Assembly: GCA_003222385.1 (NCBI GenBank)
Contig: QHVV01000071.1
Span: forward strand, 1 to 32,725
Origin: Acidobacteriota bacterium
GTDB lineage: Bacteria > Acidobacteriota > Thermoanaerobaculia > UBA5066 > Gp7-AA6
Length of the DNA stretch: 32,725 nucleotides
Direction of reading: 5' to 3'
Shown: positions 18,405 through 31,131 of the stretch, piece after piece
Numbering within the stretch: position 1 is the first letter of the stretch
How the letters are laid out: each line of letters opens with the position of its first letter
The notes under the pieces: model-generated
Told to the model about the DNA's origin: nothing
Seen by the model: the letters and a program-made list of their open reading frames with translations, nothing else
Databases searched by the model: none
Translations under genes and position numbers: made by a program

Positions 18405-19547
18405 TCAGAGAGGCGACGTCTCCACTCTCCTGCCGTCGGAGCCGGTCGAAAACGGCAAACCCAGAGTCACTTCGAGCCCCCCCGCGGCAACATTCTCGAG
18501 ATGGAGGCGCTGATCGGATCCGTAGAGCTGCTCGAGCCGCGCGCGTGTGTTCGCGAGCCCCAGCCCGGAGCCGCCCGGGCGCGGAGCGTCCCCGAGTCCC
18601 GGCCCGTCGTCGCGCACCCGCAGCACCAGCATCCCTTTTTCTTTCCGCGCCGAGATCTCGACCCTGCCGCATCCGGGCTGCGCCGAGACGCCGTGCTTGA
18701 TCGCGTTTTCGACGAGAGGCTGCAGGATCAGGTTGGGGACGCGCGCCGAGGAAAGCTCGGGGGGCACGTCGAAGGCGACCTTCAGGCGATCCTGAAAGCG
18801 GGTCGTCTGGATCTCCACGTACATCTCGAGGAACTCGAGCTCGCGGGAGAGCGGGACGAGCTGCGCGGCGTCCGCCTCCAGGCTGCGGCGCAGGAGCTCC
18901 TCCAGCCTCGAGATCGTGCGCGCCGCCGCCTCCCGGTCGCGAAAGACGAGCGGCAGGACGCTGTTCAGCGCGTTGAAGAGGAAGTGCGGATGGAGTTGCG
19001 TCTGGAGCCGCACGAGGCGCGCCCCGGCGAGCTGGGCCTCCAGCTGCGACGCCCGGAGCTCGCGCTCGCGGGACAACCGCACCGCCTGGATCGCCCAGCA
19101 CACGCCGACCACGCCCCAGTAGGTCAGGAGGTTCGCGAACAGGAAGATCGTCAGCACCGAAGGCACCGCGCGCAGCTGTCGCAGGAAGCCGAAGGGCATG
19201 CCCATGAGAGCGGGGTAGGCGAGCGCGAAGATCGTGCCGTGTCCCACCGCGAAGACCGCGCTCGCCCCGAGATGGATGGCGAAGATCCGCGGCCGCGGCC
19301 CGCCGGAGATCGGATGCCGGCGAGCGAGATCCGCCACGAGCGGCGTGAACGCCGCCCAGATGTAGGAGAAGAGGAGGTTCTGCGCGAGCGCCTCCCGGAA
19401 CCCGAACTCGAGCCTCTCGCTCGAGACCGGATCGAGCGTGTAGCGCTCGACGGCGCGGAAGAGACCCACGGCGGTCCACGCTCCGATAGTGAAAGCCGCC
19501 TGCTTCCAGGGAGGCGCGCGGCGCGCGGCCCGAGTGGCGGAGCTCAT
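18405..19547 (-). CDS. LytS-type sensor histidine kinase, intact
   Basis: 380 aa. Four or more predicted membrane helices occupy residues about 15-155 with no obvious extracytoplasmic domain, followed by a short coiled linker and the His_kinase domain. The phosphoacceptor His188 is in LHPHFLFNALNS. The ATP-binding part has the N box with N281 (QPLVENAIKHG), the G1 box DDGPGLG (313-319) and the G2 box GSGLGLANTRARL (326-338). These are the residues needed for autophosphorylation. Its ATG overlaps the stop of the neighbouring degenerate kinase (ATGA), so the two are translated together. The partner is probably the LytTR regulator at the head of the operon. Confidence 0.93.
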   Translation of the reverse strand: MSSATRAARRAPPWKQAAFTIGAWTAVGLFRAVERYTLDPVSSERLEFGFREALAQNLLFSYIWAAFTPLVADLARRHPISGGPRPRIFAIHLGASAVFAVGHGTIFALAYPALMGMPFGFLRQLRAVPSVLTIFLFANLLTYWGVVGVCWAIQAVRLSRERELRASQLEAQLAGARLVRLQTQLHPHFLFNALNSVLPLVFRDREAAARTISRLEELLRRSLEADAAQLVPLSRELEFLEMYVEIQTTRFQDRLKVAFDVPPELSSARVPNLILQPLVENAIKHGVSAQPGCGRVEISARKEKGMLVLRVRDDGPGLGDAPRPGGSGLGLANTRARLEQLYGSDQRLHLENVAAGGLEVTLGLPFSTGSDGRRVETSPL

Positions 19548-20674
19548 GGGACGGTCCGGACCGCGAGTCGGCCGACTGCCGGCGAGCCTTCCGCCTCGCC
19601 CGGCACCATCGCGACGAACGGAATCTCGACGACCGCCTCGCCCGTCAGGCTGCTCCACTCCAGGCGGTGTCTTCCCGGATACTCGAGGTCCAGTCGCCGC
19701 CGCGCTCGCGCGATCGCGTCCGCGCTCGCCGCGGGCGGAGCGGGATGGCCCGGTTTCCCGGAGTCCGCCCCGATCCGGAGCGTCATCCTCTCGTCGCGCC
19801 GCTCCGCCGAGATCTCGACCCGCGCCGGCTCGGGGTGCGCCGCGACCGCGGCTTCGACCAGAGGTTGGAGGACGAGACTCGGGACGGCGGCGTCCAGCAC
19901 GTCGCGCGGCACGCGAAGGCGGATCGTGAGGTCCCGCTCGAGCCGCGTGCTCTCGATCTTGAGATAGAGGTCGACGTATCGGATCTCCTCCGCGAGCCGC
20001 ACGAGCCTCTGACCGCCGCTCTTGAGCGACAGCCGCAGCAGGTCGCCGAGCTGGACGATCGTCCGCGCGGCGGCGCGCGGGTCCCGGCGGATCGAGGACG
20101 TGAGCAGGGCGAGCGTCTGGAAAAGGAACGTCGGATGGAGCTGCAGCTTCAGAGCCTCCAGCCTCTCGCGCGCGAGCTGCGCCTGGAGGTGCGACGCGTG
20201 GATCTCTCCTTCGCGCCACGCCCGGTAGTCGTCCAGCCCCCACGTCACGCCGACGATCTGGAGGTAGGTCGCGATGCGCGTGGGCCCCGTCTGGATCGCC
20301 GAGTGGAGGCAGTTGGCCAGGAGCGCCCCCCACGGCACGCCGGGAGCGACGATGAGCTTGTACGCGACGTTGGAGACGAACGTGTGGAGGAGCGCGATCG
20401 CGGCGGCCGCGGGAAGGTGGACGGCCGCGAGGAGAGGGAGCGAGCGCCCCGGAAACGGATACCGGCGCGCGATCCGCATCACGAGCGGCGTCGCCGCCGC
20501 CCAGATCGCCGCGATCGCCAGGTTGTCGCCGAGAGCGCTCCAGAAGATCCACGGATGCGGCTCGAGCTCGCGGCCCCGCAGATAGCGCTGCGTCGCCTGC
20601 AGCACCGCGATGAAAAACCAGACCCCGACGATCCAGGCCGCGGCGACGAGGCGTTCGCGGCGGGATCGACTCAT
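19544..20674 (-). CDS. LytS-like protein with degenerate kinase motifs (probable pseudo-kinase)
   Basis: 376 aa with the same layout as the downstream kinase: an N-terminal membrane domain (about 10-145) then a His_kinase-like domain. The catalytic residues are replaced. The phosphoacceptor motif reads LHPTFLFQT, with Thr182 in place of His and Gln186 in place of Asn. The N box reads QPLVEAAVAA, with Ala275 in place of Asn. The G1 box is IGADSGKPG, and no G2 glycine motif follows. The open frame, coupled start/stop overlap and preserved helix pattern argue against a decaying gene. By analogy with other pseudo-kinases it may heterodimerise with the intact kinase and tune it, which is inference. 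It begins 18 bp after the regulator stop. Confidence 0.88.
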   Translation of the reverse strand: MSRSRRERLVAAAWIVGVWFFIAVLQATQRYLRGRELEPHPWIFWSALGDNLAIAAIWAAATPLVMRIARRYPFPGRSLPLLAAVHLPAAAAIALLHTFVSNVAYKLIVAPGVPWGALLANCLHSAIQTGPTRIATYLQIVGVTWGLDDYRAWREGEIHASHLQAQLARERLEALKLQLHPTFLFQTLALLTSSIRRDPRAAARTIVQLGDLLRLSLKSGGQRLVRLAEEIRYVDLYLKIESTRLERDLTIRLRVPRDVLDAAVPSLVLQPLVEAAVAAHPEPARVEISAERRDERMTLRIGADSGKPGHPAPPAASADAIARARRRLDLEYPGRHRLEWSSLTGEAVVEIPFVAMVPGEAEGSPAVGRLAVRTVP

Positions 20675-20692
20675 CGGGAGAGCCGGCCCGGG

Positions 20693-21460
20693 CTACGTAC
20701 CGAAGCGGCGGAATTCCCTCAGACGGTCGCGATAGCTCGCCGAGAGCGTGAGCTGTGTGCCGTCGCGCAGGATGACCGCGTAGTCGCCGTTGAACCAGGG
20801 GTGCAGCTCGCGGATCCGCTCGATATTCACGATCGCGGAACGGTGAATTCGCAGGAACTTCTTCGGGTCGAGCCGCGACGCGATGGCGGAGGTCGTCTCG
20901 TGCAGCATGTACACGACCGGTCCGACGTGGATGCGGACGTTGTTGCGCGAGGACTCGATCCAGTCGATGTCGCGCACCTTGACGAAGACGTTCTTCCCTT
21001 CGGCCTTCAAGAGCACCCACTCCGGGAACGCGCGGTCGCGCCGGATCTTCTCGACGATCTTCCCGATCGAGTCGCGGAAGTCGTCGAGCGACCGGCCCTT
21101 GACGAGCTCCCGCACGCGCCGGACCGCCTCTTCGACCCGCTCCCGGCTGAAGGGTTTCATCAGGTAGTCCACGGCCTGCGCCTCGAATGCGCGCACCGCG
21201 TACTGATCGAACGCGGTGACGAAGACGATCGCCGGGATCTCTTCGGGCGCGAGCGCCTCGAGGACGCCAAAACCGTCGAGCCCCGGCATCTGTACGTCCA
21301 AGAAAACGAGGTCCGGCTTCAGCCGCCGGATGGCATCGGCCGCCTCGAACCCGTCACCGCATTCTCCGATGACCTCGAGGTCCGGGTCCTCCGCGACGGC
21401 GCTGCGGACCCATTCGCGAGCCAGCGGCTCGTCGTCGACCACGAGTGCACGAATCTTCAT
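20693..21460 (-). CDS. LytTR-family response regulator
   Basis: 255 aa. The receiver domain (about 1-120) has acidic D9/D10, phosphoacceptor D55 (LVFLDVQMPG), the switch TAF and the conserved Lys in DYLMKPF. The C-terminal LytTR DNA-binding domain (about 150-250) contains VFVKVRDIDWIESSRNNVRIH, FLRIHRSAIVNIERIREL and the closing YRDRLREF. It is the first gene of a three-gene minus-strand operon with two LytS-like proteins. I chose the ATG at 21460 because GGAGG precedes it by seven bases; the longer upstream frame has no support. It probably activates a nearby target. The divergent amidase gene is one candidate, but no LytTR-type direct repeat was identified. Confidence 0.94.
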   Translation of the reverse strand: MKIRALVVDDEPLAREWVRSAVAEDPDLEVIGECGDGFEAADAIRRLKPDLVFLDVQMPGLDGFGVLEALAPEEIPAIVFVTAFDQYAVRAFEAQAVDYLMKPFSRERVEEAVRRVRELVKGRSLDDFRDSIGKIVEKIRRDRAFPEWVLLKAEGKNVFVKVRDIDWIESSRNNVRIHVGPVVYMLHETTSAIASRLDPKKFLRIHRSAIVNIERIRELHPWFNGDYAVILRDGTQLTLSASYRDRLREFRRFGT

Positions 21461-21570: not shown

Positions 21571-21596
21571 GGGGACGAGTCCACTTGCCACATTAG
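21571..21596 (+). repeat. Single diverged copy of the 27-bp boundary repeat
   Basis: GGGGACGAGTCCACTTGCCA and the following CATT match the 27-bp unit seen at 26055, 26987 and 31078, except for a short change in the first third. It lies in the intergenic region between the LytTR regulator and the amidase gene, 18 bp before the amidase ATG. Confidence 0.7.
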
Positions 21597-21613: not shown

Positions 21614-22687
21614 ATGACCGCGATGAAGCTGCGAACTCTCATCGCGGCGATCGCGGGATGGGCCGCCCTGATCTCCTCGGCCGGAGCCTGCACGACGTTC
21701 TGTTTCGAGCGGAACGGCAGCGTCGTCTTCGGGAAGAACTACGACTTCGGGATCGGGTACGGGATGCTGGTCGTCAACAAACGCGGCGTTGCCAAGGCGT
21801 CCCGGATCGAGCCGCCCGACCGACCCGCTCACTGGACCTCGCGTTACGGCAGCGTGACGTTCAACCAGTTCGGCCGGGAGTTCCCGTCAGGCGGGATGAA
21901 CGAATCCGGCCTGGTCGTCGAGCTGATGTGGCTGGATGCGTCGCAATATCCGCCGCCCGACTCCCGGCCCGCGGTGGGAGTCCTCGAGTGGATCCAGTAC
22001 CAGCTCGACCAGTTCGCGACCGCGGCGGAAGTCGTCGCGAACGCGGACCGCGTCCGCATCGCTTCGAGAACACCGCTCCACTATCTCGTGGCGGACCCTT
22101 CCGGCGGCTGCGCATCGGTCGAGTTCCTCGAAGGGAAGCTCGTGGTCCACGCCGGCCCGTCGCTTCCGGTCCGCGCGCTGACGAACGACACCTACGGTTC
22201 GTCGCTCGCGTTCCTGCGCGAACGGGACCGGAGCGGCGCACGCGATCTTCCGACCGGATCCGGATCGCTCGAGCGTTTCGTGCGCGCGGCCGTTCTGGTG
22301 CGCGCCCTCGAGCGCGACGGGAATGCTGGAATCGCCGGGAACGGTCCCGCGGTCACCGACGCGTTTCGCGTGCTCGAGAGCGCCGCGAGTCCGAGCCGGA
22401 CGCAGTGGTCGATCGCGTACGACCTGAAGAACCTCCGCATCCACTTCCGCACCCGCGCGAACCCGAAGGTCCGATCGGTCGCGCTCGCGTCGTTCGACCT
22501 GTCCTGTCGTGCTCCCGTGCGCACCACGGACGTCGACGGCGGTCTCGTGTTCGGGGACTACTCCTCCCGGGCGAATCGGGCGCTCATCGAGAAGTCCTAC
22601 CGCGGCGTCGACTTCCTTCGCGAGACTCCAGCTGCCGAGCTCGACGCCGCCGCGGCGTACCCCGACACGACCGCCTGCGTCCGCTGA
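21614..22687 (+). CDS. Exported choloylglycine-hydrolase family (Ntn, penicillin V acylase-like) amidase
   Basis: 357 aa. A signal peptide ends ISSAGA just before CTTFCF, which places Cys26 at the mature N-terminus. That is the catalytic nucleophile expected in this family (linear amide C-N hydrolases). Other family marks are FGKNYDFG, the NQFGREFPSGGMNESGL segment, HYLVADPSGGCASVEF, LTNDTYG and the late TQWSIAYDLKNLRIHF. Members cleave bile-salt amides, penicillin V or acyl-homoserine lactones; the substrate here is unknown, and an exported enzyme suggests an external or periplasmic amide. A second ATG three codons later is equally possible. It is divergent from the LytTR operon, and its stop faces the cytochrome gene across only 6 bp. 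Confidence 0.9.
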   Translation: MTAMKLRTLIAAIAGWAALISSAGACTTFCFERNGSVVFGKNYDFGIGYGMLVVNKRGVAKASRIEPPDRPAHWTSRYGSVTFNQFGREFPSGGMNESGLVVELMWLDASQYPPPDSRPAVGVLEWIQYQLDQFATAAEVVANADRVRIASRTPLHYLVADPSGGCASVEFLEGKLVVHAGPSLPVRALTNDTYGSSLAFLRERDRSGARDLPTGSGSLERFVRAAVLVRALERDGNAGIAGNGPAVTDAFRVLESAASPSRTQWSIAYDLKNLRIHFRTRANPKVRSVALASFDLSCRAPVRTTDVDGGLVFGDYSSRANRALIEKSYRGVDFLRETPAAELDAAAAYPDTTACVR

Positions 22688-22693
22688 GGGGCG

Positions 22694-23188
22694 TCAGTCC
22701 TTCCGAATCTCGGCGGGAAGGCTCGCGAACCACTTTTCCAGCGCTGCCCGGTCGCCGCCCTTCAGACGACGGAGAACTCCCTCCGGGTGGGAGCCGACCA
22801 CCCGGGAATCGTCGAACGGCAGGCGCGCGTACATTTTCCCGCCCGGGTCGTGGCAGGCGCCGCAGCGCGCGGAAAGAATTGGACGCACGGTCGTCGTAAA
22901 CGGATCGGCGGCGGACCTGGAAATGGCCGGGCTTCCGGTGTCGGCGGATTTCGCGGCGCTGCCGACCTCGGCGGATTTCGCGGCGCTGCCGACCTCGGCG
23001 GGTTTCGCGGCGAGATCCGGCCCGGCCGCCGCCGAAGCCTTCTCTGCGGCGTACGAGGGAGCGGTTTCCGCAGCCGCCGGCATCGGCCGCGCAGCCGATC
23101 GCGTCTCGTAGCGGGAAACTCTCGCGCACCGCGGGGAAAGGACGAGGCCAGTTACGACCGCGGCAGCCAGGATCGTTCTCGAGCGCAT
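22694..23188 (-). CDS. Small exported monohaem cytochrome c with repeat-rich linker
   Basis: 164 aa. A signal peptide (about 1-18) is followed by a low-complexity Ala/Ser/Pro linker containing the nine-residue repeat AAKSAEVGS about 2.5 times (about 60-86), then a compact C-terminal haem domain. The haem motif is CGACH (109-113) followed by DPGGKMYARLPFDD, with Met119 a possible axial ligand. The closing pattern GVLRRLKGGDRAALEKWFASLP is typical of short single-haem domains at protein ends. It may be an electron carrier or a membrane-tethered haem domain. A Cys at 21 (SPRCARV) is a weak lipoprotein candidate. Confidence 0.82.
   Translation of the reverse strand: MRSRTILAAAVVTGLVLSPRCARVSRYETRSAARPMPAAAETAPSYAAEKASAAAGPDLAAKPAEVGSAAKSAEVGSAAKSADTGSPAISRSAADPFTTTVRPILSARCGACHDPGGKMYARLPFDDSRVVGSHPEGVLRRLKGGDRAALEKWFASLPAEIRKD
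22941..23015. repeat. 27-bp in-frame tandem repeat within the cytochrome gene
   Basis: Two perfect 27-bp units (22941-22967, 22968-22994) and a third partial, diverged unit encode the AAKSAEVGS linker repeats. The length is a multiple of three, so copy change alters linker length without breaking the frame. It is unrelated in sequence to the other 27-bp repeat family in this window. Confidence 0.92.
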
Positions 23189-26054: not shown

Positions 26055-26108
26055 GGGGTCAGGTCTCCACTTGCCACATCGGGGGTCAGGTCTCCACTTG
26101 CCACATTG
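26055..26108 (+). repeat. 27-bp boundary repeat, two tandem units (left arm of the inverted pair)
   Basis: Two tandem 27-bp units beginning GGGGTCAGGTCTCC and ending TTGCCACATCG or TTGCCACATTG. The pair is the exact reverse complement of 26987-27040 over all 54 bp. It occupies the space between the divergent VTT and EamA genes. Confidence 0.95.
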
Positions 26109-26115
26109 GAGAGGG

Positions 26116-27044
26116 ATGCCGCCACAACTCGCCGTCCTGGCCGCGGTCACCCTGTGGGGAGTCTCCTTCGTCGCCACGCGCGCCGCGCTCGCGGAGATCT
26201 CGCCGATCCCGCTCGTTTTCACGCGTTTCGCGCTCGGGACCGCCCTCCTTTTGACGCTGCTCACGGTCCGGCGCCGGCTGAAAATCCCTCCCCGGGAATC
26301 CTGGCCCGCCCTCGCCGCGATGGGATTCCTCGGGATCTTTCTGCACCAGATGCTGCAGGCGCACGGCTTGACGCTCACGACCGCGGTCCACACGGGCTGG
26401 CTGATCGGCCTGATCCCGATCTGGTCGGCGCTCCTCTCGGCGGCTGTTCTGCGCGAGAGGTTCGACTCGACGAAGGTCGCCGGTCTGCTGCTCGGCTTCG
26501 CGGGGGCCGCGCTCGTCGTGACCCGCGGCAAGCTCTCCGGCGGATTCCTCTCGCTTCCGACGACCCGCGGTGACCTGCTGATCCTGGCGAGCACGCTCAA
26601 CGTACGCTCGCGCGGCTCGGAAGCGCGCGCGCGACGGCGTTCGCGATGCTCGCCGGCTGGGCGATGCTCGCGCCGTTCTTCGCGTTTCGCGCGGGTTGGA
26701 GGGAATACGCGCGCGTTTCGCCGGCCGGCTGGGGGGCGATCCTGTTTCTGGGGATCGGCTGCTCCGGGCTCGGATACCTCTTCTGGTATGCGGGGCTCGA
26801 GAAGCTGGAGACTTCGCGCGTCGCGGCGTTCCTGTATCTCGAACCGCTCGTGACGCTCGCGGCGGCCGTCGTGCTCCTGGGAGAGCCCGTGCACTGGACA
26901 ACCCTCGCCGGCGGCGCGATCGTCCTGGCCGGGGTCTTTCTCGTCCAGCGCGCGCGGAAACCCGTGGCCGACGGGTTTTCGGGGGGCAATGTGGCAAGTG
27001 GAGACCTGACCCCCGATGTGGCAAGTGGAGACCTGACCCCATGA
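26116..27044 (+). pseudogene. EamA/DMT-family drug/metabolite transporter, frame disrupted
   Basis: The first part, from the ATG at 26116 behind GGAGAGGG, shows EamA helices (LAVLAAVTLWGVSFVATRAAL; FLGIFLHQMLQAHGLTLTTA; TGWLIGLIPIWSALLSA) and reads to LLILASTLN. About 26601-26605 the frame changes, and the rest continues as LARLGSARATAFAMLAGWAM and on through AFLYLEPLVTLAAAVVLLGE. Compared with the usual continuation after STLN (an aromatic-rich start of helix 6), about ten bases seem to be missing. The C-terminal residues VASGDLTPDVASGDLTP come from the 27-bp repeat, and the stop TGA overlaps the ATG of the next gene. It could be a true pseudogene or an assembly error. The intact form would be a ten-helix exporter. 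Confidence 0.85.
26987..27040 (-). repeat. 27-bp boundary repeat, two tandem units (right arm of the inverted pair)
   Basis: Exact reverse complement of 26055-26108. It is translated as the tail of the EamA gene, and its last base immediately precedes the ATG of the CPA2 antiporter gene. The only Shine-Dalgarno-like sequence for that gene (GGAG, ten bases before the ATG) lies inside the repeat. Confidence 0.95.
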
Positions 27045-29620: not shown

Positions 29621-31105
29621 ATGCGAACGCTCTCGCGGTCGACCCTGGTGGTCCTCTTCGGCGCCTTCCTCGTTCCCGCTGCTGCGCTCTTCGCCGACGA
29701 GCCCGCCTGGCGCGACTCGACCCGCGACGTCTACGTCGACGGGCGGCTCGATCGCGGCGTGCAGGTGCTGTCGGCTGACTCGGGAAAGCGTCTCGCGCTC
29801 CTGCTGCCCGACTCGAAGAAGGCGCTCCTGGTGGATCGGGAGAGCTCGACGTTCTCGATCGTGCCGCGCAAGGCGTTTCACGTCGCGACCGACGGGATGA
29901 CCGCCGACTTCGCCTCCGACGCCGTCGCGAAGCCCGGCGGAACAGCACAGAAAGTCGATACGTCCTCGACGATCCTCTTCTGGAAGCGCAAGACGGTTCT
30001 CGTCGCCCGCCACCAGGGGCTCGTGGGCGAGATCGACGAAAGGACGCTCTTTTCGACCGTGCCGGCGTGGGGCCGGTCGATGGAGAGCTACCAGCCGGCG
30101 GCCGCCGCGATCGACCGGATCGCGAAGGAGACGCGGCCCGTCTCGATGACGGTCGTCTTCGGGAGCTGGTGCGGCGACAGCAAGGAGTTCGTGCCGCGCG
30201 TCTTGAAGAGCATTCACGCCGCCGCCAACCCGCGCCTTTCGGTGCGCCTGGTCGCGCTCGACAACGACTTCCTGCATCCCCAGGACGTCATCGCCAATCG
30301 ACGGATCATCAACGTCCCGACGGTGATCGTGGACGGCGAAGAAGGGGAGATGGGGCGTATCACCGAAACGCCGGCGGGCAAGACGATGGAGGAGGACATC
30401 GCCGCGATCCTGACCGGACTGCCCGGCGAGCACGAAGGGCGGTACGAGCGCGGCGCCGAGCTCGCGCGCGGCACCTATCTCTACCGCGACGCCTCCGGAA
30501 AGCGCGGCGAGGAGCGCTGGACCATCTTCGGCCGCAGCGACGGCGGCCGGCTCGTCCGCAGCCAGATCGAGATCGGAGACCTCGCCGTCGAAGTCTTCCA
30601 GGGCACGGATGCCGCCGGGAAGCTGAAGTTCGCAGAGATCACGAAACGGCAGGGCGAAGCGGTCGAGCGCGCGCGGTTCTTCGTCGAGGGCGATCACCTG
30701 ACCGGGCGCCTGCGCGGCAGGGAGGCCGGCATCCTGCAGCAGGACCTGGTCCTGCCGCCGTCCTTCGCGTTCGCGGCGCCGGCGATCGCCGCGTCCGGCT
30801 GGATGGGGATCGCCGCGGCGGCGGGTCCCGCCTCCCAGCTCGTCTGTTACATCGCGCCGGCCGGGTTCGACACACCGCTCGGCTCGACGTGTGTCGTGAC
30901 GCGGCGCGTCGCGGGAGAGGAGGCGGTCAAGACGCCGGCCGGCGAGTTCCGTGCGACGCATCTCCTGCGGACGAGCGGCGGCGAGGCCTCGGACTGGTGG
31001 ATCCATCCCGACCTCGGGATCCCCGTGCGCGGCCAGATCCTGGGCGGCATGGAGTATGTCCTCTCCAGCCTGAAAATGGGGTCAGGTCTCCAGTTGTCAC
31101 ATTGA
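29621..31105 (+). CDS. Exported thioredoxin-fold protein with additional C-terminal domain
   Basis: 494 aa. A signal peptide (about 1-25, ending LFADE) is followed by an N-terminal region of unknown fold (about 30-150), then a thioredoxin-like domain (about 160-265) with SWCGDSKEF, where C184 and S187 make a CxxS rather than CxxC active site, and the cis-proline segment INVPTVIV (P233). The C-terminal 200 residues, from YERGAELARGTYLYRDASG to WWIHPDLGIPVRGQI, resemble an outer-membrane-associated beta-rich domain of unknown function. A CxxS motif favours isomerase-like or binding roles over full disulfide reduction. GGAGG eight bases upstream supports the ATG. The last ten residues (KMGSGLQLSH) and the stop are encoded by the 27-bp repeat. 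Confidence 0.8.
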   Translation: MRTLSRSTLVVLFGAFLVPAAALFADEPAWRDSTRDVYVDGRLDRGVQVLSADSGKRLALLLPDSKKALLVDRESSTFSIVPRKAFHVATDGMTADFASDAVAKPGGTAQKVDTSSTILFWKRKTVLVARHQGLVGEIDERTLFSTVPAWGRSMESYQPAAAAIDRIAKETRPVSMTVVFGSWCGDSKEFVPRVLKSIHAAANPRLSVRLVALDNDFLHPQDVIANRRIINVPTVIVDGEEGEMGRITETPAGKTMEEDIAAILTGLPGEHEGRYERGAELARGTYLYRDASGKRGEERWTIFGRSDGGRLVRSQIEIGDLAVEVFQGTDAAGKLKFAEITKRQGEAVERARFFVEGDHLTGRLRGREAGILQQDLVLPPSFAFAAPAIAASGWMGIAAAAGPASQLVCYIAPAGFDTPLGSTCVVTRRVAGEEAVKTPAGEFRATHLLRTSGGEASDWWIHPDLGIPVRGQILGGMEYVLSSLKMGSGLQLSH

Positions 31106-31131
31106 GGGTCAGGTCTCCACTTGCCACATTG
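31078..31131 (+). repeat. 27-bp boundary repeat, two tandem units (slightly diverged)
   Basis: Two tandem units of the family seen at 26055 and 26987. The first differs at two positions (CAGTTGTCAC instead of CACTTGCCAC), the second at its first base. The first unit supplies the C-terminal codons and the TGA stop of the thioredoxin-fold gene. Confidence 0.93.

Follow-up and report, generated by a model that had tools for sequence, protein, structure and literature searches.

LytS-type histidine kinases (PF06580) with a neighbouring LytTR regulator are known from BtsS/BtsR and YpdA/YpdB, and the described systems use one active kinase. Few bacterial histidine pseudokinases have been described so far. 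Pseudo-histidine kinases that control another kinase are already established, as in DivL and the evolved ChrS. DivL of Caulobacter regulates an active kinase and has kept its N, G1, F and G2 boxes (PMC4211667). The ChrS frameshift pseudokinase of Corynebacterium was evolved in the laboratory and alters signalling via a paralogous kinase; two-hybrid assays detected heterodimers of the native kinases and none with the truncated form (PMC9491836). In RetS-GacS, one kinase regulates another through heterodimerisation (review PMC12189002).

We analysed a 32,725-nucleotide stretch of contig QHVV01000071.1 from an Acidobacteriota genome, hereafter the window, in which a LytTR operon encodes both an active and a dead LytS-type kinase. 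The operon resembles the LytS/LytTR systems in its kinase family, in the PHFLFN box of the intact kinase and in the neighbouring LytTR regulator, but unlike them it produces a dead kinase along with the active one. The dead protein is, like DivL, catalytically inactive and without the phosphoacceptor His. DivL, however, contains PAS domains, belongs to another histidine kinase family and keeps the N and G boxes that the window protein has lost, and the likely partner of the window protein is its adjacent paralogue. The ChrS variant shares with it a destroyed CA domain, but is an evolved mutant whose partner kinase belongs to a separate system. RetS-GacS matches the model proposed below in that a kinase controls a kinase as a heterodimer; it differs in consisting of hybrid kinases, which the review does not describe as motif-stripped, and in having no coupled tandem pair. 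In RcsD, likewise a membrane protein, the kinase domain is inactive and an active kinase stands alongside, but RcsD relays phosphate through an Hpt domain, which the window protein lacks (PMC13317618). What is new here is a recurrent LytS kinase/pseudokinase pair; the literature searches that we made found no natural pair of this kind in the LytS family.

An intact and a degenerate kinase in one LytTR operon

The operon lies on the minus strand, where the regulator, the dead kinase and the intact kinase follow each other in the order of transcription:

20693-21460, minus strand: LytTR response regulator, first gene of the operon (Pfam Response_reg, E 8.2e-24; LytTR, E 3.6e-23)
19544-20674, minus strand: degenerate LytS-type kinase (pseudokinase) with membrane, dimerisation and shrunken ATPase-like domains (PF06580, no HATPase_c; AlphaFold2)
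20117-20137, minus strand: degenerate H box HPTFLFQ, with the phosphoacceptor His replaced by Thr and the Asn at His+4 by Gln (translation, alignment to intact kinases)
19829-19861, minus strand: degenerate N box LVEAAVAAHPE, Asn lost (translation, alignment)
19685-19777, minus strand: region of the lost G1 and G2 boxes, limits approximate (alignment to intact kinases)
19544-19547, minus strand: ATGA overlap of the dead kinase TGA and the intact kinase ATG, translational coupling (sequence)
18405-19547, minus strand: intact LytS-type histidine kinase, last gene of the operon (PF06580, E 1.2e-21; HATPase_c, E 9.5e-13)

Both the receiver and the LytTR DNA-binding domain of the regulator were recovered by Pfam, and the receiver Asp is kept (VFLDVQMPG). 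The intact kinase (380 aa) has all expected motifs (HPHFLFN, LVENAIKHG, DDGPG and GSGLGLANTR). It aligns end to end with the dead kinase (376 aa) over 365 residues at 37% identity (E 2e-62). No Pfam sensor domain matched the membrane domain. Sequence, Pfam matches and translations thus confirmed the initial annotation of a three-gene LytTR operon with an intact and a motif-dead LytS-type kinase coupled by an ATGA overlap.

The dead kinase still matches the His_kinase profile PF06580 above the gathering score (E 7.3e-17), while Pfam found no HATPase_c domain, and neither DDGPG nor GxGLG is present in its translation or alignment. The alignment therefore bore out the earlier claim that the phosphoacceptor His, the N-box Asn and both glycine boxes are gone from the upstream kinase. 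BtsS, a LytS-type kinase, autophosphorylates on His382, which stands between a Pro and a Phe (PMC10653868), so the correct phosphoacceptor position had been chosen. The dead kinase retains a different, non-catalytic His that precedes the Pro (HP).

An AlphaFold2 model of the dead kinase is confident over the full fold (mean pLDDT 90) and combines long membrane helices with two DHp helices and an alpha/beta domain of the ATPase type. Membrane helices were predicted with high confidence at residues 5-37, 44-71, 79-108 and from 116 onward; hydrophobic segments lie at about 9-27, 43-69 and 78-109, and the protein thus has a multi-pass N-terminal membrane domain. The best PDB match to the model was the GanS kinase domain (6swk, E 2e-8), and the DivL pseudokinase (4q20) was also among the matches. 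As modelled, the scaffold is retained despite the loss of the catalytic residues. The dead protein is a pseudo-histidine kinase: it has the histidine kinase fold, has lost the phosphoacceptor and is retained by selection. We considered and rejected that it is a DivL orthologue, as Thr replaces the His (Tyr in DivL) and no PAS domain was matched.

Orthologous operons share the kinase pair

We compared the window genome (G000) with the genomes of its relatives, which also carry G numbers. Among the genomes examined, G003 (DAHUXD010000024.1, 'Acidobacteria bacterium isolate clean263') is the only one of another genus in the same family with this system. Its operon has the same regulator-dead-intact order, with a GTGA overlap at the place equivalent to the ATGA of the window. 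The dead copy there lacks the same four motifs but carries other substitutions (QPGFLFD and LCEGAIANG), and this recurrence indicates that motif loss in the window kinase is not due to chance. The check on orthologous operons that had been proposed with the initial annotation thus came out in its favour: the G003 orthologue, too, lacks the His, the N box and the G boxes, although the letters differ. When 84,980 bacterial and archaeal genomes were searched with the two dead proteins as queries, only the G003 locus was found.

The regulators nearest to that of the window (self-score 558 bits) are in G003 (379 bits, 64% identity), G013 (352 bits), G011 (338 bits) and G015 (335 bits), and all regulators beyond the closest five score at most 299 bits. 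All five of the closest regulator loci adjoin an intact/degenerate kinase pair. The orthologous regulator and pair therefore extend to three more genomes of the order (G011, G013 and G015). The pair forms a single open frame in G013 (846 codons) and in G015 (809 codons), with the degenerate half first. The only in-frame start codon (ATG, GTG or TTG) of the G015 linker is one GTG, which falls within the dead half's final strand, and G015 is therefore unlikely to make two separate proteins. The joined frame of G013 contains in-frame GTG codons and may yield separate proteins. The gene order in G011 is intact-dead-regulator, with ATGA overlaps at both junctions. At this G011 locus (C231, L049), the pair is followed by two tandem LytTR regulators, which score 338 and 272 bits against that of the window. 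G011 also holds two further intact/degenerate kinase pairs.

Selection and evolutionary history of the dead copy

Selection on the dead gene was assessed by codon-position conservation between G000 and G003 in place of dN/dS; there was no closer relative among the 84,980 genomes. Identity beyond that expected from composition was 0.36, 0.47 and 0.10 at codon positions 1, 2 and 3 of the dead genes, and 0.50, 0.59 and 0.20 at those of the intact genes. Fourfold sites of the dead genes agreed at 53%, against 41% expected, and position 3 is near saturation. Neutral sequence would not show such a contrast between conserved positions 1 and 2 and a nearly saturated position 3, and the dead gene is thus under purifying selection at the protein level. 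Between the two genera, the dead proteins share 35% identity in the membrane domain, 48% in the DHp and 33% in the ATPase core, while the intact proteins share 45%, 64% and 63%. Judged from these alignments, constraint on the dead copy is relaxed most at the ATP-binding region and least in the dimerisation helices. Had the motifs been lost separately and very recently, part of the selection signal would predate the losses; this is unlikely, since all four motifs are lost in both lineages.

In a tree of 91 rows, the intact and dead kinases of the five loci and two further intact kinases of G011 formed one clade (SH-aLRT 95), within which the five dead copies clustered together (83), separate from the intact ones. 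The split between dead and intact copies was also supported in a 24-row tree (72/95). The dead branches are long, and the grouping of the dead copies is therefore no proof of a single origin. Within the G000/G003 pair, the trees showed the dead copies evolving about twice as fast as the intact ones. A duplication private to the window genome was rejected (AU p 0.004), which makes the dead copy older than the split of the two genera. Separate duplications in the two families were not rejected (AU p 0.29 and 0.34), and the dead copy may have had one origin or two within the order. The remaining kinase pairs fall into about four other lineages of the tree, and intact/degenerate pairs appear, from these placements, to have arisen repeatedly. 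The earlier view that the dead protein is not debris was upheld by the same-family orthologue without the same motifs, the conserved codon positions 1 and 2 and the rejected private duplication. Its original ground, an intact frame and membrane domain, holds true of the gene but is too weak alone to carry that reading.

Degenerate LytS domains occur beside intact ones

We surveyed 149 genomes of the class, using the regions around matches, together with further loci of the phylum; the H box could be read in 199 distinct LytS domains. Most of these (167 of 199) are lone domains, and 165 of them have both the His and the N-box Asn; the other two (L156 and L169) are split by frame breaks and their N box is not readable. 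The remaining 32 domains form 16 close tandem pairs with exactly one degenerate member each. All 16 degenerate domains therefore adjoin an intact one, whereas the 165 readable lone domains include no degenerate one (Fisher p 5e-15 for the association of degeneracy with tandem position, relatedness ignored). The lone domains were retrieved with the dead protein as query, and for about half of the degenerate partners the intact neighbour was the only lead to them.

The ATP-binding domain is destroyed or missing in all 16 degenerate members, and loss of the ATP-binding motifs in one partner is thus the step common to all pairs. The His is lost in 11 of the 16; the other five (in G013, G015, G046, G457 and G488) keep it but are without the N-box Asn and G boxes. 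Six have no ATPase-domain match at all, their frames ending past the membrane and dimerisation parts. The pairs thus display stages of degeneration: ATP site lost with the His kept, both lost, and the ATPase domain deleted. In three cases, the intact and degenerate domains share the same open frame.

Later sampling added three tandem clusters (in G133, G388 and G186) with intact members only, one G186 member being partly readable. We therefore dropped as too strong the statement that tandem LytS pairs are always asymmetric, and adjacency alone is no sign of asymmetry. The safe statement is that degenerate LytS domains were found solely beside intact ones, while not every tandem is asymmetric. 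Two of these clusters belong to another subfamily (PHFIFN) and precede a regulator-like gene: four tandem LytS-type kinases in G186 (C24, L217) and two in G388 (C199, L216), all apparently intact.

A probable two-subunit sensor and its alternatives

The dead copy is probably the working regulatory half of a two-part sensor and not debris. The initial annotation had called it a dedicated partner of the intact kinase. This claim gained strong circumstantial support, as the degenerate domains always adjoin an intact one and three share its frame. The heterodimer, also named in that annotation, is inferred from adjacency, coupling, joined frames and the preserved dimerisation domain; as a whole, the annotation's interpretation is partly supported. 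We regard as moderately probable a two-subunit sensor in which the intact kinase is gated by a dedicated dead subunit, pairing with it probably as a heterodimer. The intact kinase would bind ATP, carry the phosphoacceptor His and transfer phosphate to the LytTR regulator. The dead paralogue, with its membrane domain and DHp helices kept, would pair with the intact kinase, and its membrane domain may gate the active subunit and so tune the output to the regulator. Gene coupling would tie together the production of the two chains. The direction of control by the dead chain, be it activation or restraint, and the signal behind it are likewise inferences.

With the His and the ATP site on the intact chain only, the window heterodimer could phosphorylate only in cis; were the kinase confined to trans-phosphorylation, the dead chain would act as a brake. 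Where dead chains keep the His, trans-phosphorylation of the dead half would be possible. The details of loss differ among the pairs, with the His kept in five, and as far as these sequences indicate, one uniform mechanism is not guaranteed. An adaptor or titrator that does not dimerise 1:1 would also be compatible with the adjacency and the selection; RcsC and RcsD, the second of which has an inactive kinase domain, are considered not to pair as a 1:1 heterodimer (PMC13317618).

One rival, which we consider unlikely, is that the dead kinase acts as DivL does, forming homodimers that bind the LytTR regulator and read or sequester it without pairing with the intact kinase. DivL controls another kinase and has a phosphorylated regulator as binding partner (PMC4211667); in the dead copies, conservation is highest in the DHp, which is also the regulator-docking region. 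DivL's other kinase motifs are kept, however, unlike those of the window protein, and the joined frames in G013 and G015 favour a kinase partner over a regulator partner. It is rather improbable that the dead copy is a dominant-negative brake, which would form silent dimers with the intact kinase and set a threshold without sensing of its own. Such a brake would fit a window dead chain without His and ATP site, which makes trans-phosphorylation impossible in the heterodimer, and overlapping genes that would fix the ratio of the chains; yet the dimerisation region would suffice for it, and the membrane domain is kept, with 35% identity between the genera. The brake would follow if the window kinase acts in trans, but it may act in cis instead.

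That the dead copy is a decaying duplicate heading for loss is very improbable. The dead branches are longer than the intact ones and the ATPase core is relaxed, but this reading is contradicted by the equal losses in another genus, the rejection of a genome-private duplication (AU p 0.004), the protein-level constraint with synonymous sites near saturation, the lack of stops and frameshifts in the dead gene and the 16 recurrent pairs. Histidine kinases use the His+4 residue (HisKA) or a Gln (HisKA_3) for phosphatase activity. The window dead copy has a Gln at His+4, as a dedicated phosphatase for the regulator might, but across the dead copies this residue is Gln, Asp, Gly, Ala, Arg, Ser or Asn. 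No catalytic residue is thus conserved, and we think a phosphatase role highly unlikely.

Extending the two-subunit sensor beyond the window, we suggest tentatively, and with some doubt, that obligate asymmetric LytS kinases may have evolved several times in Acidobacteria: one subunit, or one half of a joined polypeptide, would have been stripped of ATP binding and would gate its partner, with intermediate stages still visible. If true, these kinases would be a bacterial counterpart of pseudokinase-kinase receptor pairs. The coupled and sometimes joined pair offers a natural system for asking why kinases dimerise, whether LytS kinases act in cis or in trans and how a dead subunit gates a live one, and the stages of degeneration provide a testable evolutionary series.

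Surroundings of the operon

The genes around the operon are not conserved between the window and G003. A choloylglycine-hydrolase-family (CBAH) gene (21623-22684, plus strand) is divergent from the operon in the window, and none of its relatives turned up next to the G003 operon. Upstream of the regulator, we found no sigma-70-like promoter, and a search for a LytTR site returned one short direct-repeat pair only, without support as such a site.

A dispersed repeat, TCCACTTGCCACAT, occurs at 21580, 26066-26106, 26989-27029 and 31089-31129, mostly as pairs 27 bp apart; chance alone would give 0.03 copies in the window. One of the copies is situated some 120 bp upstream of the regulator gene. 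The sequence CTCCACTTGCCACA has 50 exact copies in the genome, and its reversed control has none. We regard the TCCACTTGCCACAT repeat as a REP-like intergenic element. The label 'REP transposon' for the 27-bp repeats was dropped, as the stretch between them holds an EamA-like transporter frame and no transposase. This transporter (26071-27044, plus strand) is seemingly split into frames at 26071-26853 and 26646-27044. The second frame extends into the 27-bp repeat and has the translation of that repeat, GNVASGDLTPDVASGDLTP, as its C-terminus. The ORF at 22697-23188 (minus strand) encodes a small protein that is predicted to be exported, carries a CxxCH haem-binding motif and matches no Pfam family; the ORF contains an in-frame 27-nt tandem repeat at 22941-23012.
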